Origin: a virus
DNA: 64,000 nt
Virus record (IMG/VR): IMGVR_UViG_3300043446_003193
Location: 145,444-209,443 of that record
Direction: 5' to 3' (one strand)
The position numbers and the translations under genes were made by a program. Of this stretch, positions 4,015 through 50,703 are shown piece after piece; within the stretch, counting starts at the first letter, position 1; the number at the start of each line of letters is the position of its first letter. The notes under the pieces are model-generated. The model was given only the letters and a program-made list of their open reading frames with translations, ran no database searches and was not told the DNA's origin.

Positions 4015-5640
4015 TTATAAAGTGTTTAAACCGTTTACGATAATCTTACCGTAGAATTCTGGTCTAACGATCTTCTTAGCGTAACGAGTCATAACTCCTC
4101 TTCTTGGAGTGAAGTTAGTTGGATCGTACACTAAAGGAGTCATAATCAATGGAACATATGGAGCGTATACAGCACCTGTCTCAAAGAAGTTAGAACCTTT
4201 AAATCCTAATAAGATAACGTTCTCAGTCATGTATGGGTTTTTGTAAACATCATATCTGTTAGAGATAGAACCGATGTTAGTTACACCTGCAGCAAATTGT
4301 AAAGCATCTTTACCAGGATTTGCAGAGAAACCGTTCATTGATTCCAAAATAGTTGCAACGTTTGGAGATACTACTACGAAGTTAGCACCACCTCTCATTG
4401 TTAACTGATGGATTTTGTTAGATACCTTTTGTAATTTGATACCTAAAGTTTGATACCAAGTACTCTTAGTGTATGCAGAAGCAGCTGCTGCGTTAGAATC
4501 TACCGCGAATGCTCCAGTTGCACTATTGTAATCGTATCCAACTCTTGCATCCCAATAATCAGTTGTGAATGCGTTTTGTTGTAACATTTCTAAGATTTCC
4601 AAATCAATTTCTAAAGAAATGTACTCAGATAACATTTGAGTTAACTCAGCTTCAGCGTCTACACTATGGTAAGCATTTAAGTCTTGAGCTAATTCAGGAG
4701 TCCAAATTGCTTTCAACTTACGAGTCTTAGCAACGATTGGTTCTGATTTCAATTCTAATTCAATTTCTGGAATGTCTAAGTTTGAACCTTTATCTTCAAA
4801 GTCACCTCTGTTTTCAGCAGATGGTTGCTTATGATAAGATAATGTAGCACCACCAGCACTTACACCACCTGCAGATCCTGTACCGTAGAATTCTACTGAA
4901 GTACCATTGATCTTAGTGTATTTAGGATAGTAGTTGTTAGCTGTGATAGAACCAGATTGTAAGATTTCAAATGCTCTTACACCGTTCCAATCAGCATCAG
5001 TTGGTAAAGTTACAGTTACTTTTTTGATACCACCAGCTGCTAAAGAAGCAGATAAGTCAGCGTCAAAATTGATATCAGCCCAAGATGCAGTTGCAACTGT
5101 TGCGTCTAACGCTGCTGATGTATCGTTGATTGTATAACCAAATCTTCCAGCTCCGTAAAGACCACCTTCAGCAACTTGAGTAGAACCCAATTTGTTACCG
5201 TGAGATGCTTCAGAGTTGTAAGTTAAGTTATCCTTACCGAAAGTACCACCTTTACCGAATAATGAATTACCGTTAAAGTCTGGGTTACCAGCTTGTGAAG
5301 TACCATATTTGAAGTCCATGTAGAAAATAAGACCTGAAGGTAAGTTCATAGGTTGTACTGAAACGAATTCTTTAGCTGCGATAGAACCGAAGATTCTTCT
5401 TACTAAAGGTAACGCAACACCAGCCCATTCTTCAGAACCTGCTGAAGTACCTGTTCTTGTAGCCTCATCCAATAATTGCTTAGCTTGGTTTTCTAACATT
5501 ACTGCCATACCATGCTTAGTAGTTTCTGAACCTACTCCTTCAAGTAAGCCAGTTTTTTCCCATTTGCTTTTCAAACCTCTAGTTTGCTCAAGCATTACGC
5601 TCTGTGGGTTAGCGCCTGTCATTAATTTTTTTAAGTCCAT
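4015..5640 (-). CDS. gp23: Major capsid protein, gp23-like
   Basis: 541 residues, close to T4 gp23 (521). The clearest family block is VRRIFGSIAAKEFVSVQPMN followed by LPSGLIFYMDFKYG (about residues 80-114), matching the gp23 start of the mature HK97-like fold. An L-D-E/A site at residues 57-60 sits where T4 gp23 is cut by the gp21 protease, so the first 59 residues are probably removed on maturation. The gene follows the core protein and protease genes as in T4 and is followed by its own terminator, fitting very high late expression. The leader (GTACATACAATG) has no SD sequence. Confidence 0.95.
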   Translation of the reverse strand: MDLKKLMTGANPQSVMLEQTRGLKSKWEKTGLLEGVGSETTKHGMAVMLENQAKQLLDEATRTGTSAGSEEWAGVALPLVRRIFGSIAAKEFVSVQPMNLPSGLIFYMDFKYGTSQAGNPDFNGNSLFGKGGTFGKDNLTYNSEASHGNKLGSTQVAEGGLYGAGRFGYTINDTSAALDATVATASWADINFDADLSASLAAGGIKKVTVTLPTDADWNGVRAFEILQSGSITANNYYPKYTKINGTSVEFYGTGSAGGVSAGGATLSYHKQPSAENRGDFEDKGSNLDIPEIELELKSEPIVAKTRKLKAIWTPELAQDLNAYHSVDAEAELTQMLSEYISLEIDLEILEMLQQNAFTTDYWDARVGYDYNSATGAFAVDSNAAAASAYTKSTWYQTLGIKLQKVSNKIHQLTMRGGANFVVVSPNVATILESMNGFSANPGKDALQFAAGVTNIGSISNRYDVYKNPYMTENVILLGFKGSNFFETGAVYAPYVPLIMTPLVYDPTNFTPRRGVMTRYAKKIVRPEFYGKIIVNGLNTL

Positions 5641-5663: not shown

Positions 5664-6881
5664 TTATTTAATAATACCTGCTAATTTCTTAAATCTGTCA
5701 GAAAAATCAGCTGATTCAGCAATTACTTGCTTAGCTGCTGCTGGCTTAGTAGATTTTACTGCTTTGCTAGCGATTCCTTCAGAAATAGATTTTTTAGTAG
5801 ATTTGTTAGATGAAGAATATTTGAAATTCTCTGCTAATGTAGAGTAAACCAATTTAACTTCTCTAACTGATTTTGTTCTATCCAAAGTTTCAATCACTTT
5901 AACTTTTTGTTCGTTAGTCATGTTGTGTGCTCTGAATAATTTGTTAGCGAATAACAACTTAGCGTTCAATAAGTTCACTTCGTTGATTGTTTTTTGTAAA
6001 GACTTGATAGTTTTGTAAGCTTCGTTAAGTTCTTTTTCTTTTTCTTCTTCTTCAGCTTCGTCAACTTTCTCTTTATCGTCTTTCATATCCGCTTCCATTT
6101 CACGTAAGATTTCTTCTAAATCAACAACGTCTTTGTCATCTTCTTTAGATTCTTCTTCGTTGGTTACAACCACTTTAGGGTCTTCACCTTTGTCTGTACC
6201 TGCTTCAGAACCATCTGCTAAATTTTCGTTTTTAGCTTCTTCATCTTCTTCAGCTTCGTACATAGGTTTTTCTTCTTCTTCAGAATCTTCACCTTCTAAT
6301 TGAGCTTCTAATTCTCTGATGATAGCTTCTAAGTCCATGTCATCTTCTGTTTCTTCTTCTTCAGAACCAGTTACGTCATAGTCTTCACCATCTTCTTCTC
6401 CTGTCTCATCCGCACCCGCAGTAAATGCTGGTAATTCTTCTTCAGAATCTTCTCCTTCTAATTCTGCTAATCTAGCTTTTAATTGAGCGATTTCGTCTTG
6501 TTTTGCAACTTCGTCATCACCAGCTTGATCATCAGCGAAAGGATTTTCTTCTTCAGAGATATCTGCTACCTTTTTGAAATCATCAACTTGTGCACCTGGT
6601 TCGCCAGATGTTGTTTCAGTTGAACCTGCTTCAAATTCAGTATCAGCGTCTAATGTAGGATTAGATGTAGATGCACCAATGTTTGATGAATCTAATTCTT
6701 CGTCAACTTTTTCAGCTTCTTTATCTTCAGCTTCAGCTTCTGCTCTTAACTTTGCAGATAAGATAGATTGAAGTCTTGGAGTGAAAGCCTCTTCAAGTGC
6801 GATTTTTGCGTTTGCTAAAGCAGTTTCTTTTACAGCTTTGGCATCAGCGATTGCTTCTTTCAATAATTTTGAATTTGCCAT
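5664..6881 (-). CDS. gp22: Prohead core/scaffold protein, gp22-like
   Basis: 405 residues, extremely acidic: residues about 45-270 are dominated by runs of Glu and Asp (repeated EDSEEE-type segments), followed by a coiled coil and a Lys/Ser-rich C-terminus. This is the make-up of a T4-like prohead core protein that is degraded inside the head before DNA packaging. Candidate protease sites of the L/I-x-E type are seen near the N-terminus (LLKE/A) and C-terminus (VIAE/S). It sits directly upstream of the capsid gene as gp22 does. The start has a clear SD-like AAGGA six bases before ATG, rare in this window. Identity is inferred from composition and position. Confidence 0.85.
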   Translation of the reverse strand: MANSKLLKEAIADAKAVKETALANAKIALEEAFTPRLQSILSAKLRAEAEAEDKEAEKVDEELDSSNIGASTSNPTLDADTEFEAGSTETTSGEPGAQVDDFKKVADISEEENPFADDQAGDDEVAKQDEIAQLKARLAELEGEDSEEELPAFTAGADETGEEDGEDYDVTGSEEEETEDDMDLEAIIRELEAQLEGEDSEEEEKPMYEAEEDEEAKNENLADGSEAGTDKGEDPKVVVTNEEESKEDDKDVVDLEEILREMEADMKDDKEKVDEAEEEEKEKELNEAYKTIKSLQKTINEVNLLNAKLLFANKLFRAHNMTNEQKVKVIETLDRTKSVREVKLVYSTLAENFKYSSSNKSTKKSISEGIASKAVKSTKPAAAKQVIAESADFSDRFKKLAGIIK

Positions 6882-7027
6882 CTTTTTTCCTTAAATTTTG
6901 TTGTGAAGTTATTCTTGTAGGGAACTCCAATGTAATTATGTTGATTGTTCGGTCACACCTTATAAGAGAAGGGTATTCATTAACCAACGATGTCTTGTAA
7001 TCTTATAATAAAAATAAGATATTTGAG
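6882..7027 (-). promoter_or_regulatory. Long 5' leader of core/capsid mRNA with hairpin and SD-like site
   Basis: If transcription starts just after the ATATTTATT box at 7028-7036, the mRNA has about 140 untranslated bases, while most other units have about 40 bases or fewer. A 7-bp hairpin (ATCTTAT / ATAAGAT, 7000-7020) lies near the 5' end and an SD-like AAGGA at 6888-6892 precedes the start. I see no gene in this stretch. Confidence 0.5.
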
Positions 7028-7036
7028 AATAAATAT
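7028..7036 (-). promoter_or_regulatory. Putative late promoter box (ATATTTATT) for core/capsid unit
   Basis: ATATTTATT on the minus strand, between the bS21 stop codon (7064) and the core-protein gene. It would drive the core and capsid genes up to the terminator at 3957-3988. Confidence 0.6.
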
Positions 7037-7063: not shown

Positions 7064-7243
7064 TTAGTGATTATACTTATTTTTTCTTATAGTTTCTTCT
7101 TTTTGTAACCTTTTTTTAATAGAAGGTTTAGTAAAGTTCTTTCTTTCTCTAAGTTCTTCTATTTGTTTTATGGACTGAACTTTCTTTTTATATTCCTTTA
7201 ATGCCCACTCTATGTTTCCGTTTTTCACGTTAACTATTAACAT
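7064..7243 (-). CDS. rpsU: Ribosomal protein bS21 homologue (59 aa)
   Basis: ATG at 7241-7243, TAA at 7064-7066, 59 residues. It reads MLIVNVKNGNIEWALKEYKK, then a basic helix with LRERKNFTKPSIKKR and a Lys/Arg-rich end. This follows bacterial bS21 along its whole length: M-L-I-V/I-x-V-K, the ALK+(Y/F)K+K helix, then LR.R..F.KPS..KR. bS21 sits on the 30S platform next to the 3' end of 16S rRNA, and in Bacteroidota it helps hide the anti-SD sequence. The gene ends the prohead operon, six bases after the 99-residue gene, so it is probably expressed with late genes. Phage-encoded bS21 is known in other large phages; the effect here is inference. Confidence 0.9.
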   Translation of the reverse strand: MLIVNVKNGNIEWALKEYKKKVQSIKQIEELRERKNFTKPSIKKRLQKEETIRKNKYNH

Positions 7244-7249
7244 AACTAA

Positions 7250-7549
7250 TTAATATGGTGTTTGATATTCCAATTGTTTTTTTAATTCTCTTTCGTATTC
7301 CTTTTCAATTTTATCTAAATCATCTTTAGCAGATTTAATATCTTCTTGATGTTTTTTTAATTGATAAAGATATTGGTTTTTTCTATCTTCGTTTTGTTCA
7401 TCAAAATATGCTTTACTCATCATTTTTTGACGAGTTGTTAATCCTTCATATTTTCTTATAGCATCAATGTATGCAGATGATGCTTTTCTAAAACCGGCTC
7501 TTATTTTAACTGCTTCTTCTTTTAAAGGAATTAGATTTATTAGTTTCAT
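7250..7549 (-). CDS. Small coiled-coil protein of prohead operon (99 aa)
   Basis: Highly charged, almost entirely helical protein with heptad-like Lys/Glu patterning from residue 45 to the end (KKHQEDIKSAKDDLDKIEKE). The N-terminus MKLINLIPLKEEAV is a short amphipathic peptide with an L-K-E/E site, like several neighbours, and may be a capsid-targeting peptide cut by the prohead protease. The start overlaps the stop of the 123-residue gene in TAATG fashion. Likely a prohead core component, but no family is recognised. Confidence 0.7.
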   Translation of the reverse strand: MKLINLIPLKEEAVKIRAGFRKASSAYIDAIRKYEGLTTRQKMMSKAYFDEQNEDRKNQYLYQLKKHQEDIKSAKDDLDKIEKEYERELKKQLEYQTPY

Positions 7550-8625: not shown

Positions 8626-9216
8626 TTAGTTTAATTCAATTATGATTTCTCTCATTAAATCCTGTGATTTACACCACTTACCACATTCTTCTGCCATCTG
8701 TTTCCATTGTTTAGATTCGTTCATTGGTGCCATAAATGCTCCATGTGTAGATGGATTAGAAACAAAATCCCAACCTACTAATTCAAAATCTTCTTGAACC
8801 ATTACAGTTCCATCTCTTAATTCTTTAACAGACCCTAAACCTCTTGATGAAATACCTAAACGAATATTATTCTTTAATAATTCTTTTAATATGTTACCAG
8901 ATGGAGTTGAAAGTATTTCTACTACACCACATACATCATCACCTTCCCAAAAAATTTCTCTAATATTGTGAGATACATTTTTTAAGTTAATTACTGGAGA
9001 ATCCGGATGGTCTAATTCACCCAACGCTCTTCTTTCTTTAATGAGTTGTTCGTATTTTTTACACTCTCTTTCCAATATTTCACGTGGATATCTTCTACCA
9101 TTTTGGTTTGCAGCCCCAGCTCTTTGAAGAATGCCCTTAACTAAATAAGTACCATTTTCTTCTTGTTGAAGTTTTGCTTCAAATAAGTGTGTTTCTATTA
9201 ATAGTCCTTTGTTCAT
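8626..9216 (-). CDS. gp21: Prohead core protease, gp21-like
   Basis: 196 residues, near T4 gp21 size. Visible family signs are RAGAANQNGRRYPREIL near residue 35, a catalytic-type histidine in GELDHPDSP (about residue 70) and the serine block GISSRGLGSV (about residue 120), followed by VGWDFVSNPS. The enzyme cleaves core and capsid proteins after L/I-x-E sites before packaging. Its own N-terminus has two such sites (LLIE/T and LFE/A), consistent with self-processing. The start overlaps the stop of the EF-hand gene by one base. Confidence 0.93.
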   Translation of the reverse strand: MNKGLLIETHLFEAKLQQEENGTYLVKGILQRAGAANQNGRRYPREILERECKKYEQLIKERRALGELDHPDSPVINLKNVSHNIREIFWEGDDVCGVVEILSTPSGNILKELLKNNIRLGISSRGLGSVKELRDGTVMVQEDFELVGWDFVSNPSTHGAFMAPMNESKQWKQMAEECGKWCKSQDLMREIIIELN

Positions 9217-13083: not shown

Positions 13084-14143
13084 CTCTACAACTCCAATAT
13101 CTTGCTTTCCATCTTGGGCCTGGATTATCACAATTATGTCTCGCTCTAAAATTCTTTCTTCTTTCTGGATTATCTTTTTTAATAACCATTCTCTTTCCTT
13201 TTGCAGATGTACCACCAAATCCAAAGTTTACTTTAACAACATTTCCTTTGTCGTTTTTAACATATACTTTAAATTTCTTTACATCACCTTGCATTGGTTT
13301 ACCTAATTTAACACTTCTACCTTGATATTCTGCTTCATATACACAATTACAATTTGCCTCTGCAAGTTGTTTGGTATATTCTCTCATAAATTTAATAAAA
13401 TCATGAGTATCTTGTTCGTTTTCTACATCATACTCATCAATTTCTGTTGCGTCATCTCCATAGTATCCACCAGGTTGGTCGTTTTCTTTTACAGGTACAC
13501 AGTTTGGAACCATTTTACCATTTTTCATTTTACCACCAATTTCTCTATATCCATCCCAACATTCATGTAATGCATTTAGTTCTCCTAAACTTTCATCACA
13601 TTTTCTCCAACCACCACCTTTTTCTTTGTAGTTTTTTGCGGCCCATCCATTTGCATATGCTGATGGGTATACATCAAATTTAGACTTAGCAGCGGATTTA
13701 GATGCTGCCCATTTACCAGGGTCTGTTGGGCAATTCTTTTCTAAGAATAAATTTAGTTTTTCTTCTATATTCATAGTTTCATTTTTTTTCTTTCCTGCGC
13801 AATGTGCTTTTTGACTAAAACCTTTTGGATTATTACAGTCTATACTATTTTTATATTTTTGACTCCAATCTTCATTTTTTGGTTTAGTAGAAACATATAT
13901 AGGTGTTTTACCTTGTCCACTACTATCTTTACCACCTCTTCCCGCATCGTTTTGTGCAGCTCTCTTTCTACGAGTTGCACTTTCTTTCTCTTTCTTACTC
14001 ATTCCGGCAGCTTTTGCAGCGGGAACACATTTGGCATATCCACTTTTATCTCCAGAAGTTCCACATGGTGGGTGTTTACCATCAACTTTCTTGCCGATGT
14101 TTACCCATTTTTCTTTAAACCATTTATTTAAATCTTCGTTCAT
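13076..14143 (-). CDS. Mosaic protein of Cys-containing phage modules (DUF5872 N-terminus)
   Basis: 355 residues built from separate modules. Residues 1-95 look like DUF5872 (KVDGKHPPCGTSGDKSGYAK, then KCVPAAKAA and a Lys/Arg-rich GRGGKDSSGQGKTPIYV). Residues about 95-120 hold CNNPKGFSQKAHCAGKKK. Next is a DPGKWAASKSAAKSKFDVYP module, then ECWDGYREIGGKMKNGKMVP, and finally a C-terminal module with GDVKKFKVYVKNDKGNVVKV and FRARHNC...RYWSC. I have seen these modules as separate units in T4-like phage head proteins. The cysteines may bind metal, but this is inference. It lies between terminase and portal behind its own late box. Confidence 0.75.
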   Translation of the reverse strand: MNEDLNKWFKEKWVNIGKKVDGKHPPCGTSGDKSGYAKCVPAAKAAGMSKKEKESATRRKRAAQNDAGRGGKDSSGQGKTPIYVSTKPKNEDWSQKYKNSIDCNNPKGFSQKAHCAGKKKNETMNIEEKLNLFLEKNCPTDPGKWAASKSAAKSKFDVYPSAYANGWAAKNYKEKGGGWRKCDESLGELNALHECWDGYREIGGKMKNGKMVPNCVPVKENDQPGGYYGDDATEIDEYDVENEQDTHDFIKFMREYTKQLAEANCNCVYEAEYQGRSVKLGKPMQGDVKKFKVYVKNDKGNVVKVNFGFGGTSAKGKRMVIKKDNPERRKNFRARHNCDNPGPRWKARYWSCRAW

Positions 14144-14160
14144 CTATAAGAGTTTCAACA

Positions 14161-14169
14161 TATAAATAT
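14161..14169 (-). promoter_or_regulatory. Putative late promoter box (ATATTTATA) for 355-aa gene
   Basis: ATATTTATA on the minus strand, between the terminase stop codon and the ATG at 14143 (17-base gap). Confidence 0.65.
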
Positions 14170-14174
14170 AAAAT

Positions 14175-15782
14175 TTATCCAATTAACCAGGTTAAATTTT
14201 CTGTTCCTTTTTTTCCTAAATCCATTTCATATGGATTTTGTTTTAAATGGTTAGTGGATATTAATCCTTCATATTTGTTTATTTGTGTTGCACCTAACAT
14301 ACTTTTAGTTAAGTCAATACCTTCTTGTTTTAAACGAAGTGCTGTATTTCTAACCCAAAGTCCAATTGCCATAGCCATTGTCAAGTCATCATTATAACCC
14401 TTCATAGCTTCTGCTCTTCCAGCTTGCCAAATAAATGTAAATAATTCATCTATCAATCTACCAGAACGAATAAGGATATCTTTATCGTTTATGTAGGTAT
14501 CTAATGTTGAAATAATAAGAGGACGAGTTTTTGATGTAGTAGAGAATCCTGCAACCATTTTCTTTTCATCTCTATAAAATTTACTACTCATTTGTTTTTC
14601 TACATCAATATATTTTAAATCAACACTCATATAAAATAGATTTCCGTATCCTCTATCTATACATTGTTGAATTGTAGACCATCCTACGTTTGAGTTTTCT
14701 ACTACTAGTAATGCGTTGTTCCATTCGGTTGCAACGGCTACTAAAAAGTTTCCAAAGTCTTTTGTTTCAATTTTACCTCTATATTCTGCAACTTGAGAAC
14801 TATCCTCAATATCAATAACCTGAAAAGTAGAATAATCCGAACCATCTCCTCTCGCTACGTCGGCCACTACCATATATTGTCTATTATAATTTGGATGTTC
14901 CCATTTCCAATAGTTACCATCAAACCCAGTTTTTTCTATCGGGTCCATCACATATGTATCTTTATACCACATCAATAATTGAGGATCTATTACAGTGTCA
15001 CCAGAAGATACGAAGTCACAGTCACATTCTTGTGCTGCACCTTTAACTCCTAAGATTCTTGTTTGTTCATCTCTCCACGCTTGATTTCTTTCAGGGTGTA
15101 CAGTCCAATGTAGATTAATACAATTAAACCCGTTTGAACCATTTTCTCCTTCAACCCACATTTTATGGAACCAGTTACCCACACCATTAGGAGTAGATAA
15201 TACAATAGCAGCACCACCCGTTGAAAGTGTTGACTGTGCTGATAACCAAATTTCATCAATATCTCTAATGAATGCGGCCTCATCCACAACTAATAGGGAT
15301 AGGGCTTCCGAACGTCCTGCATCAGGAGAACTTGCAATTGCTTTTACTTGAGAACCATTTTTTAATTTAAGAGAAAGTTTGTTATCTTCAGCTGCTGCGG
15401 TTGAACCATCTCTTAACCAAACAGGAAGAAGGTCATGCATTACTCTAACCTTTTCAACAAGGTTTTTGGCTACCGTAACTTTTGTTGCAATAACCAATGC
15501 ATTAAAATCTTGATTAAATAACATTTTCCAAAGAATGTATCCTGCAGAAAGTGTTGAAAGACCTAACTGACGGGATTTAAGAATAATGTTAAAACGATTA
15601 TCTTTAAAATCTGTTAAACATCCCTCCTGGAAAGGATAAAGGTGAAAGGGTATTTTTCCTCTCACCGGGTGCTGAATTACACAATATTTTTTCATAAAGT
15701 AAATGGGGTCTCCCGCACACTTACGATATTCTTCAGCGATTATCTCTTTCAGGCTCTTCTTTGGTTGAGCTTGAGCTTGCAT
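14175..15782 (-). CDS. gp17: Terminase large subunit, gp17-like
   Basis: 535 residues. N-terminal ATPase: Walker A-like KSRQLGLST (residues 69-77), Walker B SLLVVDEAAF (about 162-171) and a coupling STPNGVGNWFHKM motif. C-terminal RNase H-like nuclease: VVADVARGDGSDYS (acidic pair near residue 305) and a late acidic NDDLTMAMAIGLW. The enzyme pumps DNA into the prohead and cuts concatemers. A small terminase subunit is not recognised beside it. The start overlaps the stop of the 215-residue gene by one base. No intein interrupts the ATPase motifs. Confidence 0.97.
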   Translation of the reverse strand: MQAQAQPKKSLKEIIAEEYRKCAGDPIYFMKKYCVIQHPVRGKIPFHLYPFQEGCLTDFKDNRFNIILKSRQLGLSTLSAGYILWKMLFNQDFNALVIATKVTVAKNLVEKVRVMHDLLPVWLRDGSTAAAEDNKLSLKLKNGSQVKAIASSPDAGRSEALSLLVVDEAAFIRDIDEIWLSAQSTLSTGGAAIVLSTPNGVGNWFHKMWVEGENGSNGFNCINLHWTVHPERNQAWRDEQTRILGVKGAAQECDCDFVSSGDTVIDPQLLMWYKDTYVMDPIEKTGFDGNYWKWEHPNYNRQYMVVADVARGDGSDYSTFQVIDIEDSSQVAEYRGKIETKDFGNFLVAVATEWNNALLVVENSNVGWSTIQQCIDRGYGNLFYMSVDLKYIDVEKQMSSKFYRDEKKMVAGFSTTSKTRPLIISTLDTYINDKDILIRSGRLIDELFTFIWQAGRAEAMKGYNDDLTMAMAIGLWVRNTALRLKQEGIDLTKSMLGATQINKYEGLISTNHLKQNPYEMDLGKKGTENLTWLIG

Positions 15783-16429
15783 TATTTTTTAAATTTAATC
15801 TTCCAATATACACCTGCCCCAACATATGGTGATAAAGAACCATTTGTTCCATCAACCGTTCTGTTTGCAACGCCGGCACCTAATTGGTAAATTTTATCTT
15901 TTTTAGTTTTTACTATAACACCTGCACCTATATTAGATACCACATCTGCTTTATTAAATCCACCATTGAATCCATAATATACTTGTGTTTTAGGTAATTC
16001 TTTAACAATAAGAGTTTCTTTAATTTCTCTTTGTTTTACACTTGCATTGAAAGTTCTACCTAAAATTTTATTTTGTGTAATAGTATCTGTTACTGCTACT
16101 GTACCCAATGAATCAGGCAATCTTAAAGTATCTTTATAAACATTTTTAGCAAAGAAATCTTTTAATAACGCTGCTGTGTCTACTATTGTAGGAATTACAA
16201 CTTCTTTTTCAACAATTGTTTCGTGATAAATATCTGCACCTTTTTTAGTTACAACTTTAGTTTTTACAACTTCAAATGTATCAATATCATGTTTAATAAC
16301 TTCATATTTTTTACCATCAATTCTAACAGTTCTTCCTGGCATTTTACCACCTGGATTAAAATACTCCAATAATACGATTACAACTAATACCGCAATTGCG
16401 ATGTTTTTTAAATTTAATAATTTTTTCAT
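15782..16429 (-). CDS. Membrane-anchored protein with beta-barrel-like C-terminus (215 aa)
   Basis: One N-terminal membrane segment (residues about 8-26, NIAIAVLVVIVLLEYF), then a long hydrophilic Val/Lys/Thr region, then a Gly/aromatic C-terminus (VYYGFNGGFNKADVVSNIGA, ending SPYVGAGVYWKIKFKK). The last strands look like outer-membrane barrel strands ending in alternating aromatic and basic residues. It could be a spanin-like protein linking inner and outer membranes or an envelope protein of unknown use. It sits between terminase and the 222-residue gene. No known family is recognised. Confidence 0.6.
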   Translation of the reverse strand: MKKLLNLKNIAIAVLVVIVLLEYFNPGGKMPGRTVRIDGKKYEVIKHDIDTFEVVKTKVVTKKGADIYHETIVEKEVVIPTIVDTAALLKDFFAKNVYKDTLRLPDSLGTVAVTDTITQNKILGRTFNASVKQREIKETLIVKELPKTQVYYGFNGGFNKADVVSNIGAGVIVKTKKDKIYQLGAGVANRTVDGTNGSLSPYVGAGVYWKIKFKK

Positions 16430-16433
16430 AATT

Positions 16434-17102
16434 TTATTTTTTAATTAATTCTGGATGATTTAACTCAACCAACTTTTCTTCTAATAACCTTTTTCTTTCA
16501 ATCAATAATTCTATTGCTTCATAAGAATTATCAATATCTTTTTTTAAATCTTTTTTTACTTTTTCAATGTCAACATCCCAATCCCATTTTGAAATTGTAC
16601 CATCTTCATTAACCATTTCAATTTGTTGTTTCACTCCACCTAAAGCCTCTTCCAATCTATCTTTATATTCTCTTATAAAAGCCAATTTATTTCTGGTTAT
16701 TTTATAATCTTCATAGTACGGATATGTACCATCTATCTTTAGATTTGTTTCTAGTTTTGCTAAACAATTTGTACATAATCCTGTTTTACGGATTAGTTTT
16801 TTGTCTGCCCAACTATATTTTCCAGTCTCACATTTTTCATCAGAACAAGTATTTAATTTTTGTAAATACTGTCTAACATCATCCATTTGTGAATGAGCGA
16901 TTTTAAAACCTTCTTTTTGTTCCCAAGTCTTACCATCAGAATCGGTCCAGATTTCTCCAACCTTTCTTTTTTGCTCACTTTCTTTTTCATAACCAAATAC
17001 TCTTTGAGTATTATCTTCTCTTCCAAAAACCGTGTCTATAATGAGTTTACGAGATTTGTGCATCCCTTTTGCTTTCTCATCAAAACTTTTTCTTTTTGCC
17101 AT
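16434..17102 (-). CDS. Protein with four-Cys zinc-finger-like motif (222 aa)
   Basis: Residues about 80-115 contain two Cys pairs (CSDEKC and CTNC, about 35 residues apart), the spacing of a structural zinc site. The N-terminus is very basic (MAKRKSFDEKAKGMHKSRK) and the C-terminal 100 residues are a Lys/Glu-rich helix pair. DNA or RNA binding is plausible. It is the first gene of the terminase unit behind an ATATTTATA box, where a small terminase or packaging factor could be expected, but there is no sequence match I recognise. Confidence 0.65.
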   Translation of the reverse strand: MAKRKSFDEKAKGMHKSRKLIIDTVFGREDNTQRVFGYEKESEQKRKVGEIWTDSDGKTWEQKEGFKIAHSQMDDVRQYLQKLNTCSDEKCETGKYSWADKKLIRKTGLCTNCLAKLETNLKIDGTYPYYEDYKITRNKLAFIREYKDRLEEALGGVKQQIEMVNEDGTISKWDWDVDIEKVKKDLKKDIDNSYEAIELLIERKRLLEEKLVELNHPELIKK

Positions 17103-17121
17103 TGTAACTGTTTAATTTATA

Positions 17122-17130
17122 TATAAATAT
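17122..17130 (-). promoter_or_regulatory. Putative late promoter box (ATATTTATA) for terminase unit
   Basis: ATATTTATA on the minus strand, 19 bases before the 222-residue gene that precedes terminase. Confidence 0.65.
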
Positions 17131-17138
17131 ATATTGTC

Positions 17139-20100
17139 TTATTCATAAAAAATACCAAGTATCTGATTTAATGGTGCGAATGTACCTGTAAGTTTATATG
17201 TTTTTCCATTATAAAAGAATACCAGTCCTTCATTTGCCACTATTCTTTCAATTCCACCCAATCTATTCAATCTACTCAATTCTTGTTTTAATTTTTGAAT
17301 TTGTGCAGGATTGCCAGAAGTTTTAACTTGATCGGCAACTGTTTTTAATCGTGATTTCATTGAACGAATTGCCTTATCAGGATGAACCGTCAATACACTA
17401 CCAACAAATTCTAAAACATCTGCACCTACTCCTAAAAATATTTCTTCAAATGGTTTGATATTATCTTTTTGTTGTTTTGCAACATTTACTTTATCATTAT
17501 TCATTGCCCAGTCTTGTAACTTAGGATTTGATATTGTATTTAATCTAAAAGATTTATCACCAAATGCCCATCTTCTAATTAAAGCTTCTTTTGTAAGTTT
17601 ATCAACTTTAACAGGTGCGTTTGATGTAATCCACCAATCCCACCAACTTTGATGATAATCTGCTACATTATCTGAATCTTTTAATCCAAATTCGGATTGT
17701 AATTTTGAAATCTTAGAAAGATATTTTGATTGTTTAGAACTTAAATCTTCTGATTTTGGAATTTCAGTTATTGGTGGTCCTTGAATTGTGTATTTAGATT
17801 GAACATCTGCATTTACTTGCTTAATCATACCTGCTAATACACTCTCTGCTCCATCCACCTTACCAACAGCGTTTCCTTTTTCATCATATTCTATACAATT
17901 GTGAAATACTAAAAGTGCTTGTCCGTAAGGAATAACATTTACCGAAGTTGGCCAAATTACTTCAATATTCATAAATTTGGTTCCTTCACCAAATACTTTT
18001 TCTCTTTGTTTTTGAGATAATGCAGATACTGCTGCTGAAAGGTCTTTCATTGCGTAATTATATGCATCTGTTAAACCACCTCTTCCGCCAAATTTTGATG
18101 CAACATCTTCAATGCCCATTGCACTTGCTCCACCATTTGATAAATGTCCTTTATTTCTAGCTGCAATTAATCTACCATTTTTCCAGCTGATTGCTAACGC
18201 CTGTCCATCGGTTTTTTCTCTTACTACACCTAAATCCCCATTAAGTGCTTTTGTAACGATATCTTTAAGGTGTCCAAATGTCAAATCCATATCATCAAAT
18301 GGATGACTCATATGACCATATGCCCCACCTTCCATTAATAGACCTTCTTTTAAAAATTCAGTTGGTTTTTCATCAAATCTAGGTAGGTTTCTTGCAGAAT
18401 ATTTTACAGTATATTGGGTTTCATCTTCATCACCCCATATTGCATCTGCTATTGGAAAATCCATCTGCGTATATCCACCACTATAATACCAATCATCTCC
18501 TTTATTTACACCATCGTCTGCGTCTAATTTTCTAGTATGTCCTTTTGGTAAATAAGCACCATCGGCTTGAGAATCTGCATCAGCTAATCCACTTATTTCA
18601 TTTATATACATTTCAATATCTTCGTATAATTTTGAAATTTGTTCGTCAAAGTTAGGTTTGATGTTTAATTCTTTTTCCATTTTAGTTATCTCATCATATC
18701 CCATATTTCTCAATGATCTTGCAACATCATTTGCTTTATATCCGTTTGGATTTCCGAATAAGTATGCATTTATTCTTTTTCTGAATGTTGAATTTTTATA
18801 TGCATCAATTAAATTTTTAAAATGAACATCATTGGAACCCATTTCATCTATTTTACGAAATGTAGTTGCCTGTCTTCCATTTATTGTTGGCATTCCATGA
18901 TCATCCTTTCCAATATCTTTAACTTGTACCTTTTTATTTTTAAACTTACCCATTAAAATAGTATCACCCGTATCAACATCTACATTAACATCTTCTTTGT
19001 TAATTTCAATTGCTGCCAGTTGCTTTTTAGCAGATGCTAACGAATCATGAGTTCCTAATCTATCTCCACCATTTTTTGGATATACAACATATTTGTCACC
19101 AACTTTTTTTATGGTTTCGTTTACATTTTCATTGTAGATTTGTTTGTTGATTCTACCATATTCTCTCATTAGAATTCCTGCAACTGCATGTGCTTGGTTT
19201 TCTATTGGAGAACCATCTGCACCATCTTTTTCTAAATTTCTAACTAACCCCAATTCATCTTGCTTTCTATGAACCATTTCATGTGCAAGAGTTCTTAGGA
19301 TATCTGCTGTTAATCTACCTTCGGTTGCAACATATATGGATTTATCTTCAGGATTATATCCACCTAAACTTGTTTTTACTTCTGCGAATTCTCTTCCACC
19401 AACTAATGTAACATTTGGTGTTTCTTTTAATTTTAATCTTTTAGTTGCAAATTCTACAAAATGTTGAATAGATTGTTGTTTTGTTTCTGATAAATTTTCA
19501 TTTAAAGAAAACTTACTAATCATTTTTTTATTATTCCAACTATCTGCTATTTTTTCCGCAATTTCAGGAGTAATATCCATATTTTCTATTCTTTCTGCAA
19601 TTGCGGCTGCAAATATATTTAGTGCACTTGCTTCATCAATATCTTCGGCAAAAATAGCAGCTTTTCCTACACCAGTTGCAACTACTTCTGTTACAGCATG
19701 TGGTATCAATTCCATAGCCGTATGTTTTACCAACCCAGCAGCACCATGTGCCAATCCGCCACCAACTGCTGCAAATAATGCTGTTGTAGCTATTTTAATA
19801 CCAACGGATTTTAAAGCTTTTTTCTGCTTATCATCTAATTTACCACCAGCCATTAAAGTTTTTACACTACTACCAGCTGTTTTAAATGTATCATATTCAT
19901 GCTTCAAACCATGCATAATTGCATGTCCAGCACCTTTTGCTTTGTCCATTATAGCCTGACCCCAACTTCTTCTCTCATCGTGTCCTTCTTTTTTATTTAA
20001 TAACTTAGAAAAAGTTTGTTTTTCTTCTTTACTCCAATTTTTTACTTTTTCTTGTATTCTTTTTACTTGACCTTCTTTTGTATTTCCTGATTTTTCTTTT

Positions 20101-21224
20101 TGTGCATTTTTTTCAGCATCAGATTTTAATTCTACACCAGATAATTTTTGTTCTGGAGGCGGACCTTGTTGGGTATCAGAATCGGTTCCTATTGGAGAAG
20201 TTTTTTCTTTATCTATTTTTCCTTGAGTGGTTTGTCCTTGTTTTGTTGGTTGTCCAGGCTCAGATGGTTTAGCTGCTTGAGTTGCTGCTTTTCCAGGTTC
20301 TTCTTTTTTCTTTGGTTGATTAGCAGGAGCATCGGCTGGCCCAGCTATTTTAGCAGCTTGAATATGTGCAGGATGCTCTTTAGGTAATCGTAATGCATCT
20401 CTTGCTTTAATTTTCTTTTGTTGTCCTTTTGAATTTGTATATGTTATATCAACGTCTAATGCAGGATTTTCAGCTTCTCCAAAATATTGATTTGTAAATT
20501 CTTCAAACATTTCATTGGTAATGTAGTTTTGAATTATTTCAGAAATAGGATCATATACATAATCATCGTCTGTTGTAGCTACTGCTCTAATTTCTTTATT
20601 CTTTTTTTCAATAGCCTCTACATCTTCTTTTGAAGGGTATCCTCTATATAATTCTTCGTTAAGTTTGGTTGTTATCATTTTGAATATTTCTCTATCAAAT
20701 TTTGGATATGCTTTTAAGAAAAACTTTTTAGCTTTTTCTTTATCATTACTTCCCAATCCTTTTCTAACTTGAGTTCCACTAATTGGATTTGGTTCTGGAG
20801 GGATAGGATATGTATAACCAATTTCATCATAACCATATCCAGATTTTCCGTTATATGGTTTGAAATATTTACCTTGTAACCTTGTTGCATCTTTTTCACC
20901 AACTGCTGCAATATAAGCAGTAGTTTTTCCATCAAACTTTCCAAGTATTTCTACCGGTCTATATGGGTTAGAAACTTTAACAAATTTTGAAGCAGGAACT
21001 CCAAACATTGTAGTTGCTATTTCTTTTTTTTCTTTAAAAGTAAATGGTGATTTATCTGAAGATGTATCATTAGAACTTGCTATATAGACATTTGCTTCTC
21101 CAAACTGAGAAACTAATCTTTGATACGCATCATAATGTCCTCTGTGAAATGGTTGAAAACGACCACCGTATATTACGATAGTTTTTTTAACCTCTGGTTT
21201 ATTCACTTCTTTTATTAAATTCAT
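17139..21224 (-). CDS. Giant three-domain protein: HxGH nucleotidyltransferase, HExxH peptidase-like, KxDG ligase-like
   Basis: 1361 residues. Residues 1-190 are a cytidylyltransferase-type fold: GGRFQPFHRGH (HxGH at 27-30) and ISGTQVRK (148-155). A Lys/Gln/Pro-rich linker (about 280-430) and a Gly/Ala-rich hydrophobic stretch follow. HEMVH at 648-652 with a following KQDELG looks like a zincin-type metallopeptidase site. The C-terminal 400 residues show nucleotidyltransferase/ligase motifs in order: KTDG (Lys 1004), GRLIAARNKG, FMNIEVIW, NEGLVFF and YKLTG. The head MNLIKEVNK has an I-K-E/V site like prohead-targeting peptides. A late box is four bases from the ATG. Perhaps an internal protein delivered with DNA, as T4 Alt is. 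Domain calls rest on motifs; activity is unproven. Confidence 0.75.
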   Translation of the reverse strand: MNLIKEVNKPEVKKTIVIYGGRFQPFHRGHYDAYQRLVSQFGEANVYIASSNDTSSDKSPFTFKEKKEIATTMFGVPASKFVKVSNPYRPVEILGKFDGKTTAYIAAVGEKDATRLQGKYFKPYNGKSGYGYDEIGYTYPIPPEPNPISGTQVRKGLGSNDKEKAKKFFLKAYPKFDREIFKMITTKLNEELYRGYPSKEDVEAIEKKNKEIRAVATTDDDYVYDPISEIIQNYITNEMFEEFTNQYFGEAENPALDVDITYTNSKGQQKKIKARDALRLPKEHPAHIQAAKIAGPADAPANQPKKKEEPGKAATQAAKPSEPGQPTKQGQTTQGKIDKEKTSPIGTDSDTQQGPPPEQKLSGVELKSDAEKNAQKEKSGNTKEGQVKRIQEKVKNWSKEEKQTFSKLLNKKEGHDERRSWGQAIMDKAKGAGHAIMHGLKHEYDTFKTAGSSVKTLMAGGKLDDKQKKALKSVGIKIATTALFAAVGGGLAHGAAGLVKHTAMELIPHAVTEVVATGVGKAAIFAEDIDEASALNIFAAAIAERIENMDITPEIAEKIADSWNNKKMISKFSLNENLSETKQQSIQHFVEFATKRLKLKETPNVTLVGGREFAEVKTSLGGYNPEDKSIYVATEGRLTADILRTLAHEMVHRKQDELGLVRNLEKDGADGSPIENQAHAVAGILMREYGRINKQIYNENVNETIKKVGDKYVVYPKNGGDRLGTHDSLASAKKQLAAIEINKEDVNVDVDTGDTILMGKFKNKKVQVKDIGKDDHGMPTINGRQATTFRKIDEMGSNDVHFKNLIDAYKNSTFRKRINAYLFGNPNGYKANDVARSLRNMGYDEITKMEKELNIKPNFDEQISKLYEDIEMYINEISGLADADSQADGAYLPKGHTRKLDADDGVNKGDDWYYSGGYTQMDFPIADAIWGDEDETQYTVKYSARNLPRFDEKPTEFLKEGLLMEGGAYGHMSHPFDDMDLTFGHLKDIVTKALNGDLGVVREKTDGQALAISWKNGRLIAARNKGHLSNGGASAMGIEDVASKFGGRGGLTDAYNYAMKDLSAAVSALSQKQREKVFGEGTKFMNIEVIWPTSVNVIPYGQALLVFHNCIEYDEKGNAVGKVDGAESVLAGMIKQVNADVQSKYTIQGPPITEIPKSEDLSSKQSKYLSKISKLQSEFGLKDSDNVADYHQSWWDWWITSNAPVKVDKLTKEALIRRWAFGDKSFRLNTISNPKLQDWAMNNDKVNVAKQQKDNIKPFEEIFLGVGADVLEFVGSVLTVHPDKAIRSMKSRLKTVADQVKTSGNPAQIQKLKQELSRLNRLGGIERIVANEGLVFFYNGKTYKLTGTFAPLNQILGIFYE

Positions 21225-48478: not shown

Positions 48479-49636
48479 TTAGAAAGATTTTGGATGCATC
48501 TTTCCAAATCTTGTTTTATAATCCTTTGATTCAGTTGTACCATCTGCTTTTGTAACAGATACCGTCATAGTTGAATCATAACTTACACTATGTGAGTTGC
48601 CATATAATGGAAAACCTCCTGGTTTTGAATCTATTCCATCACCCGCTTTGTGATCAATTCTAAGTTGTATATCTTTAGTACCTCCAGGTGGTAAACTAAA
48701 CTGTGTTTCAGGAATAATTAACCAATCAGGATTTCTTCCGATTCCACTTGGTTTAGTGTGACTTATTTTTACGGTTGCGGCCGCTTTATCATTATTGGTA
48801 AACTTTAATGTTCCACCGGTTGACCATCTAACTTCGCTACTACCTGATTTTCCATTACCTCTTAATTTAACATCTTTATCTTCAGTAGGGCCGTCTATTT
48901 TTAATATAACTGCTTTATTAATTGCGTCTGCTCCAGATGCCAATGCAGTATTTGTAGTTGATTGTTGAATCGCTTGTTGTTGTTGAACCGCACCTAATTG
49001 TGCCTGTAAACCTTCAATGATTGAATTCAATGAATCAATTTGTTTAATTAATGCTTCAATTTGTGCTTTAAATCCAGTATTTTGTGATTGTAAAGAAGCT
49101 CTTAAAATAGATTCATCAATTGATTTTTGAACTGCTGATTGTATTTGATTTGAAAAATCTTGTATAGTTCCAGTTAAAGTATCAATTTGGTTAACCAATG
49201 TATCGTTTGTTTGATCAACTGATAATCTATTATTTATTTCAGTTTGAACCTGTGATTTTAAAGTAACTATCTGGGAATTAAGTGCTTCAACTTTTGCAGT
49301 TAATGATTGAACTTGCTTTCTTAAATCTTCTACTAAAGCAACTTGCTCATCATATAAAGGTTTTGGAACGAGATTTAAATTACGTTCTGGTATTACTGGT
49401 TTTAATTCTTTTACCTCAACATCAATTGCTTTTAATATTTCTTCTTCATCATACTTTGGTGCAGTTAATGATTTAAATAACAAAGAAGATGCAACATTTT
49501 TTTCATCAACAACTGTTACACCATATTCGTTTTTAGAAACAGCAGAACTTCCCGATACTCTCAATACACTTTCAAGTTCAGAACTTCTTGTTTCATCTAA
49601 TTTTTGAGCAATTGCTTCCAATGATGTTAATGCCAT
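48479..49636 (-). CDS. Coiled-coil fibre-like protein with C-terminal beta domain (385 aa)
   Basis: Residues about 105-240 form a long coiled coil with regular heptads (VEDLRKQVQSLTAKVEALN and IEALIKQIDSLNSIIEGLQ). A C-terminal 130-residue Ig-like domain follows (ILKIDGPTEDKDVKLRGNG, FSLPPGGTKDIQLRID). This layout suits a trimeric short fibre or whisker bound to the baseplate. The start overlaps the stop of the 355-residue gene in TAATG. No named family. Confidence 0.75.
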   Translation of the reverse strand: MALTSLEAIAQKLDETRSSELESVLRVSGSSAVSKNEYGVTVVDEKNVASSLLFKSLTAPKYDEEEILKAIDVEVKELKPVIPERNLNLVPKPLYDEQVALVEDLRKQVQSLTAKVEALNSQIVTLKSQVQTEINNRLSVDQTNDTLVNQIDTLTGTIQDFSNQIQSAVQKSIDESILRASLQSQNTGFKAQIEALIKQIDSLNSIIEGLQAQLGAVQQQQAIQQSTTNTALASGADAINKAVILKIDGPTEDKDVKLRGNGKSGSSEVRWSTGGTLKFTNNDKAAATVKISHTKPSGIGRNPDWLIIPETQFSLPPGGTKDIQLRIDHKAGDGIDSKPGGFPLYGNSHSVSYDSTMTVSVTKADGTTESKDYKTRFGKMHPKSF

Positions 49637-50703
49637 TATGCAACTATTTGAAATATTAATTTATTATCAATTATTGTTGAAATTCCACTTTCAACTATTT
49701 TAAGTTTTAACCTATATGCTCTATTAATTGGTAAAGTATTTAAATCAACAATAAAATAATTTGAAGTTGAATCACAACTTAATTTACTATAATCTCCAAA
49801 AGGAATTATAATTTCATTAGTTGTATAATCTTCTAATTGATAATATGAAGATGTTGGTAAATACTTTGATTGGTCGTATTCAAATGTTGTACTAAATGAT
49901 TTTGAAGGAAACATATCTCTACCCTTAACTCTTATTTTTATTTTTTGATTAGCAGGATATTGTTTTTTTAAATTTGATACAACAACCTTATAACCATCTT
50001 CTGCAGAGCCGGTTACCGGTGCTAAACTTCCTGTTGAAACTGAACTATCATCCCAAACTATTTCTAATTTAGGTTCATATATTGTATTAGTTTCTTTTGA
50101 AAAGAATTTAAGAACACCATAATCTTGTGTATCGTTTTCTTTATCCAAAGCATGGTGTAATATAAATCCATTGTTTGGTAGAGAACCACTAACCCATAAA
50201 TTTACAATACCAGTTACATCCATTCTAACATCATCCGATTCGTATGAATAAGATTGTGATGCCATAGATGCAGTATACCAAGTTCCACCACCACCATTGG
50301 AGATAGAGCCCGTATCGGAGCCACTCACATATGCATCTGGATTAATATCATATACCATCCATTCGTTTATACCATCTTTATAAAACCAACTAACACCATC
50401 TGTTGTTATGTTATCAAATTTAGTACCAGTTCCCATTGTCCAACTTTGAGAAACTGCGTTTGCATAAATTGTATATTCTAATGGAATTTCTTCGGATTTA
50501 GCCGCCTTTAAATTAAGATATGCTTTCCAACCACTTCCCGTTTCCAAATTAGAAACATTAAATTTAATCAATGTTCTATTTACATCTTTAGTAGCACCAT
50601 AATATAGTTTACCTACTTCTAATATTTCATCTCTCCCAGCATTTTGATTTGGTTGCTGTAAGTAGATACTTGCATCGTATGATGATGTATAAAATTTATG
50701 CAT
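49636..50703 (-). CDS. DNRLRE-like beta-domain structural protein (355 aa)
   Basis: The first 215 residues resemble DNRLRE/CBM-type sandwiches: YDASIYLQQPNQNAGRDEIL near the start, LIKFNVSNLETGSG, and near residue 175 DVTGIVNLWVSGSLPNNGFI followed by YEPKLEIVW. Such domains occur in secreted and fibre proteins. A second beta half carries the C-terminus. It lies directly after gp6 with a TAATG overlap and is probably a fibre or baseplate attachment protein. Carbohydrate binding is inference. Confidence 0.7.
   Translation of the reverse strand: MHKFYTSSYDASIYLQQPNQNAGRDEILEVGKLYYGATKDVNRTLIKFNVSNLETGSGWKAYLNLKAAKSEEIPLEYTIYANAVSQSWTMGTGTKFDNITTDGVSWFYKDGINEWMVYDINPDAYVSGSDTGSISNGGGGTWYTASMASQSYSYESDDVRMDVTGIVNLWVSGSLPNNGFILHHALDKENDTQDYGVLKFFSKETNTIYEPKLEIVWDDSSVSTGSLAPVTGSAEDGYKVVVSNLKKQYPANQKIKIRVKGRDMFPSKSFSTTFEYDQSKYLPTSSYYQLEDYTTNEIIIPFGDYSKLSCDSTSNYFIVDLNTLPINRAYRLKLKIVESGISTIIDNKLIFQIVA

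Follow-up and report, generated by a model that had tools for sequence, protein, structure and literature searches.

A ribosomal protein bS21 with arginine at the Tyr54 column, encoded in the head operon of a phage clade with inferred Bacteroidota hosts

A separate clade of phages, comprising the one studied here and about 90 relatives, encodes, as judged by alignment, a ribosomal protein bS21 with arginine where that of F. johnsoniae has Tyr54, the residue that stacks on A1534 and helps to hide the anti-Shine-Dalgarno (anti-SD) sequence (PMC9976891). By analogy with published mutant ribosomes, this protein is probably expressed late, replaces the bS21 of the host and relaxes the sequestration of the anti-SD. 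The occurrence of bS21 in Bacteroidota phages is already known, and Chen et al. 2022 (PMC9723584) have put forward that it may redirect the ribosomes of the host, and hence translation, late in infection; new with respect to the literature that we found are the Arg54 clade, the arrangement of its operon, the leader of its core gene and the AAGGA retained there. An aromatic residue occupies position 54 in 61/61 phage bS21s of Chen et al. 2022 (PMC9723584), and the Arg54 clade limits the published generalization that this holds for every phage bS21 examined. The clade amounts to a natural Y54 mutant of bS21, for which Tyr54 phages and phages lacking bS21 serve as controls, and it offers a direct test case for the possibility that phage ribosomal proteins alter mRNA choice; it also adds a conserved and previously undescribed RNA leader to a head operon.

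Identity, operon and host of the phage bS21 gene

The window, i.e. the whole stretch of 64,000 nucleotides that was analysed, is the final 64 kb of a virus record 209,443 bases long, which from its sequence belongs to a large, T4-like phage of ~209 kb with a T4-like head operon. The bS21 (rpsU-like) gene lies at 7064-7243 on the minus strand, starts with ATG and encodes 59 aa ending in ETIRKNKYNH. The original prediction had read a 59-residue frame here as bS21, to be checked by an HMM search with bS21 profiles, and such a search bears it out: the product matches PF01165 (Ribosomal_S21; Pfam) with 48.8 bits and E=5.5e-13, above the curated cut-off of 27, in an alignment spanning residues 4-55 of the protein and positions 2-54 of the 55 of the profile. 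It also matches PHROG 21469 ('ribosomal protein S21', E=1.1e-6) and bS21s of solved structure, including that of F. johnsoniae (7jil, E=3.2e-7). It is the single bS21 in the whole record, and relatives at 67-100% identity are encoded on 80 viral contigs, which argues for a conserved gene and not a chance frame.

Genes of the clade follow the order protease-...-bS21-core-capsid, on one strand throughout. In the window these are the prohead core protease (8626-9216, minus strand; Peptidase_S77 by Pfam), on which the phage tree was based, small genes, bS21 itself, a 405-aa protein (5664-6881, minus strand; N-terminus MANSKLLKEAIADAK) and the Gp23-like major capsid protein (4015-5640, minus strand; Pfam), whose gene lacks an SD. 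The 405-aa protein is encoded by the next gene after bS21, and its location between the protease and the capsid gene, directly 5' of the latter, fits a prohead core/scaffold protein. Directly 5' of bS21 is a small gene without assigned function (7250-7549, minus strand); its stop precedes the ATG of bS21 by 6 nt, which makes cotranscription of the two probable. Upstream of this ATG the sequence reads ATTAATTAGTT, with no SD; other bS21 genes of the clade have none either, or at most AAGGA or AAGG abutting the ATG, a spacing that, as read, is too short for SD action. The strong SD of Bacteroidia rpsU, which is very strong in F. johnsoniae, is absent from the phage gene.

The freshwater Bacteroidetes phages of Chen et al. 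2022 (PMC9723584) resemble this phage in being large and myovirus-like, in having a bS21 near that of Bacteroidetes and in placing it next to genes of the head (terminase, portal, protease and capsid). Their bS21, however, is encoded on the other strand than the head genes and carries the aromatic residue 54, whereas here it has Arg54 and lies on the same strand, inside the head operon, as it does wherever a clade locus extends to the capsid or protease gene. In the protease tree the Arg phages form one group (91/99), which belongs to the same lineage as immuto and Mel-JY01 and is far from the phages carrying bS21 on the opposite strand, i.e. the Tyr54 phages that stand in for the Chen-type lineage in place of Chen's own genomes. 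The Flavobacterium phages vB_FspM_immuto share with the present phage a related capsid, the head-gene order and a Bacteroidota host, but they have no bS21, no SD at the core start and no match to the core leader. In Microcystis phage Mel-JY01 (PP395634), as here, bS21 lies between the prohead protease and the core gene and lacks the Tyr54 motif, and the core leader is recognizable with both of its hairpins; this phage differs in its cyanobacterial host, its SDs before a large part of its genes and its distant bS21 sequence.

We infer an SD-poor Bacteroidota host, in agreement with the original prediction, from the bacterial bS21s closest to it in sequence (51-60% identity; their titles give Bacteroidota, Bacteroidales or named Bacteroidota genera, besides two weaker matches at 43%), the start profile, which has A at -12, -11 and -3 and resembles that of Flavobacterium phage immuto, the capsid kin (Flavobacterium and Rhodothermus phages, but also a Microcystis phage) and the TonB-dependent receptor genes, which have Bacteroidota homologues of Bacteroidia type. 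Naming the host through a TonB receptor was rejected, as the best matches reach merely 33-48%. Outer-membrane receptor genes are located at L083:10120-12372 (minus strand; Plug + OMP_b-brl_3, 750 aa) and L084:2686-5967 (minus strand; CarboxypepD_reg + OMP_b-brl_4, 1093 aa); such cargo is unusual, and it perhaps serves superinfection exclusion or nutrient uptake.

Residue 54 and access to the anti-SD

Arg53 of the phage protein aligns to the Tyr54 column of F. johnsoniae, and the clade relatives read have Arg there as well (KRLQKEETIRKNK), so the aromatic residue that stacks on A1534 is missing. Tyr occupies this column in 22/22 bacterial loci compared and in all of the best 30 bacterial bS21s from 395 phylum genomes, and Tyr, His or Phe stands there in every other phage bS21 of Bacteroidota type that was read; Arg was found in two distant Bacteroidota MAGs (L112, KAIRRAKR; L113, KAARRAHR). 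A comparison of the residues contacting the anti-SD had been proposed along with the gene; one residue was compared, and the replacement of Tyr54 by Arg favours altered anti-SD access. The clade retains the N-terminal part of Bacteroidota bS21, including the KPS..KR segment shared with the F. johnsoniae protein (McNutt et al. 2023, PMC9976891; 7jil), and has exchanged the ...AxYxQ... tail for a short basic Arg54 tail, which is shorter than that of F. johnsoniae and lacks both Tyr54 and the AxYxQ segment. In F. johnsoniae the bS21 tail controls anti-SD access and rpsU is autoregulated; the ...AxYxQ... tail pins the 16S 3' tail, which is held by bS18 and bS6 too, Tyr54 is one of several contacts, and the class Chlorobia lacks it (PMC9976891). 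Aromatic residues are frequent at positions 57/58 of the clade proteins (KLF, KYNH), and these might stand in for Tyr54.

A tree of the N-terminal part of bS21, which omits the tail, is built on a short alignment and leaves most forks unresolved, places the Arg type within a Bacteroidia-plus-phage group (support 95/91) that includes neither E. coli nor the two distant bacterial sequences with Arg; the nearest bacterial matches are Bacteroidota. Arg54 would thus most simply be derived from Tyr. At residues 22-27 of the phage bS21 (P0001 and relatives), many Bacteroidota phages read V...KQ, as against F...TG in bacteria, and the V...KQ proteins come from two head-gene lineages, which suggests either shared gene descent or convergence near the mRNA path.

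A viral bS21 has been found incorporated into E. coli ribosomes, and in other Bacteroidota phages the bS21 gene and late structural genes are transcribed together (PMC9723584). In F. johnsoniae, Y54A or loss of the C-terminus led to more translation from strong-SD reporters; an introduced weak SD (AGGA) was unaffected by Y54A, C-terminus deletion or bS21 depletion, strong SDs alone responding to these changes (PMC9976891). On this analogy, the phage paralogue would be expressed late alongside the head proteins and would displace host bS21 on 30S subunits, its incorporation being likely, and the resulting ribosomes would act as the Y54A ribosomes of that study do, their anti-SD being freer, a release that is plausible. 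SD-less phage mRNAs would then be about unchanged and SD-led messages would initiate better, including that of the core gene, provided that its structured leader contributes. Because the phage bS21 start has no SD, it may escape the autoregulation by which the host turns rpsU off once it has ample bS21. Counting against the mechanism are the further contacts that hold the 16S tail, the aromatics at 57/58 and the unresponsive weak AGGA; a freer anti-SD should also raise host rpsU, given its strong SD. For the explanation as a whole, a late bS21 paralogue that replaces the host protein and frees the anti-SD, we put the chances a shade below even.

The phage protein might instead merely complete 30S subunits late, e.g. 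where host bS21 is scarce or degraded, with the anti-SD still hidden and Arg54 either neutral or offset by aromatic residues of the tail. Such a role would suit the phage mRNAs, which are essentially SD-less with a Bacteroidota start profile and have no obvious gain from a free anti-SD, and it would agree with the weak AGGA being unresponsive in vivo (PMC9976891) and with the nearby aromatic at 57/58 being common in the clade; but Arg54 and the altered tail are uniform in ~90 contigs, where drift should vary, and other Bacteroidota-type phage relatives retain Tyr, His or Phe, and we regard it as somewhat unlikely. That the infected Bacteroidota lineage is itself without Tyr54, leaving anti-SD access unchanged on infection, appears clearly unlikely. 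Arg does stand at this column in L112 and L113, and Chlorobia are without Tyr54 (PMC9976891); however, the N-terminal part of the phage protein sides with Bacteroidia, apart from L112 and L113, the TonB-dependent receptors and lipoprotein-like signals appear to be of Bacteroidia type, and Tyr54 is present in G324, G316 and G115, three of the best-receptor-match genomes, in which bS21 was read.

Start sites and the leader of the core gene

With a simple gene caller 206 genes were predicted, of which almost every one is on the minus strand, and an SD-like 4-mer precedes 9.8% of 204 called genes versus 7.9% expected from shuffles, consistent with the earlier observation that most other starts have no SD. 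The mean dG minus shuffled is -0.25 to -0.52 kcal/mol in the Arg phages and -0.31 to +0.08 in the Tyr phages; most Tyr phages, like immuto, show almost no SD strength in excess of shuffles, and for Mel-JY01 the value is -1.72. For non-coding upstream regions alone, the excess is -0.30 +- 0.08 (Arg) versus -0.12 +- 0.05 (Tyr), and in the Arg phages it peaks at -11 to -9. Since the Arg-phage genomes belong to one clade and are non-independent, this difference counts as one weak contrast in favour of a freer anti-SD; the excess is slight and is in part a coding constraint of upstream genes, so that genome-wide SD use in the Arg phages is slight at most. The strongest 'SD' in the window (dG -12.4), AAAAGGGAGGGC before a 355-aa gene without assigned function (49636-50703, minus strand), was rejected, as these letters encode the conserved C-terminus (KGRA) of the gene upstream. 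The tail sheath gene of the sister phage G001 (C1:119879-122137, plus strand) carries AAGGAG, unlike those of G000, G002, G003 and G005.

The SD-like AAGGA expected before the core gene is indeed present, at 6888-6892 on the minus strand, 6 nt before the ATG. It is kept in 55/56 clade leaders, the exception being L208 with AACGA, and the sister phages L168 and L170 carry it too (CCAAGGA). No SD was found at the core start in 18 opposite-strand Tyr54 phage loci (dG -0.9 to 3.5). The original prediction held that phage bS21 could alter start choice and that with this SD the phage might favour its own most abundant mRNA; Arg54 speaks for the former, and the latter fares poorly, because the SD is on the core gene while capsid starts have it in 0/69 cases, and because weak AGGA did not respond in F. 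johnsoniae (PMC9976891), which makes preferential core translation through AAGGA on its own unlikely. The view of the core SD as an adaptation to Arg54 is weakened as well, for the phages L141 and L150, which have bS21 in the same slot with Tyr at column 54, share the core SD and carry SDs on most genes. Many genes of Mel-JY01 also have SDs, its core leader included. Such SD-bearing core leaders in generally SD-using relatives indicate that the core SD was more likely retained than invented for bS21, and it is probably older than the loss of Tyr54; on the simplest reading, the clade descends from SD-using ancestors, most SDs were lost in an SD-blind host and that of the core was kept. The most far-reaching proposal, that the clade makes SD-blind Bacteroidota ribosomes SD-competent late in infection through a lock-less bS21, read out by the core SD at the leader end, we consider very unlikely.

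The gap of ~180 nt between bS21 and the core gene is highly conserved in the clade. A late-promoter-like TATTTATT lies at 7028-7035 (minus strand), 154 nt before the core ATG; ATATTTAT occurs 38 times between genes versus 2.3 expected, and late-promoter-like motifs are strongly enriched intergenically, many preceding structural genes. Downstream, the sequence folds into a two-hairpin leader whose 3' end is formed by AAGGA. Hairpin I (6940-6988, minus strand) comprises P1 (GTTGGTT/AATCAAC) and P2 (TACCCTT/AAGG(T)GTG), both with compensatory changes, and an internal loop AATGAA/ACCGAAC; hairpin II (6904-6929, minus strand; TGGAGTT/AACTTCA) is nearly invariant across the clade, with a double change from GC to AU in Mel-JY01. 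Over 17 leaders 97.5% of cells pair, with double changes in 6 pairs (14 cells), as against 37-51% paired in slid versions; the covariation score, which relatedness may inflate, was matched by 0/500 shuffles. An Rfam search of the leader gave nothing at E<=10. A search of 1.3 Mb with a covariance model built on hairpin I found nothing but core leaders of the clade and one further site (E=0.047), directly before the Mel-JY01 core gene (two overlapping loci); the model had no match in immuto, L141, L150 or LR756508, nor in 12 Bacteroidota genomes, a search made without a positive control. An r-protein leader of the rpsF (S6:S18) type was rejected, given the lack of an Rfam match at E<=10 and the loss of the CC pair in L170 and Mel-JY01. 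The two-hairpin core leader is thus, as read from the alignment, conserved with compensatory changes and absent from Rfam.

The leader may itself be what matters, hairpins I and II binding a protein, of the phage or the host, by which core synthesis is set, and AAGGA being inherited from an SD-using ancestor, an account compatible with any reading of bS21 and, in our estimate, just short of evens. The compensatory pairs and the covariation score speak for it, as do the restriction of the model to the core leaders of the clade and of SD-using Mel-JY01 and the SDs on most genes of the relatives L141 and L150; on the other side, the loss of SDs elsewhere with retention at the core is left unexplained, and bS21 is not directly concerned.

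The phage has ample translation-related gear beyond bS21: ~18 tRNA genes and a tmRNA (RF00023, 79.6 bits; predicted tag ending in YAVAA) lie on the minus strand at L082:13965-19046 and L083:351-832 (record 13965-20832), and a GOLLD RNA (RF02032, 267 bits) is found at L082:19053-19467. Adjoining Fe-S assembly genes (Fe-S_biosyn and NifU_N) are present at L084:7030-7769, and a GroES-like Cpn10 gene at L085:18566-18883, on the minus strand.
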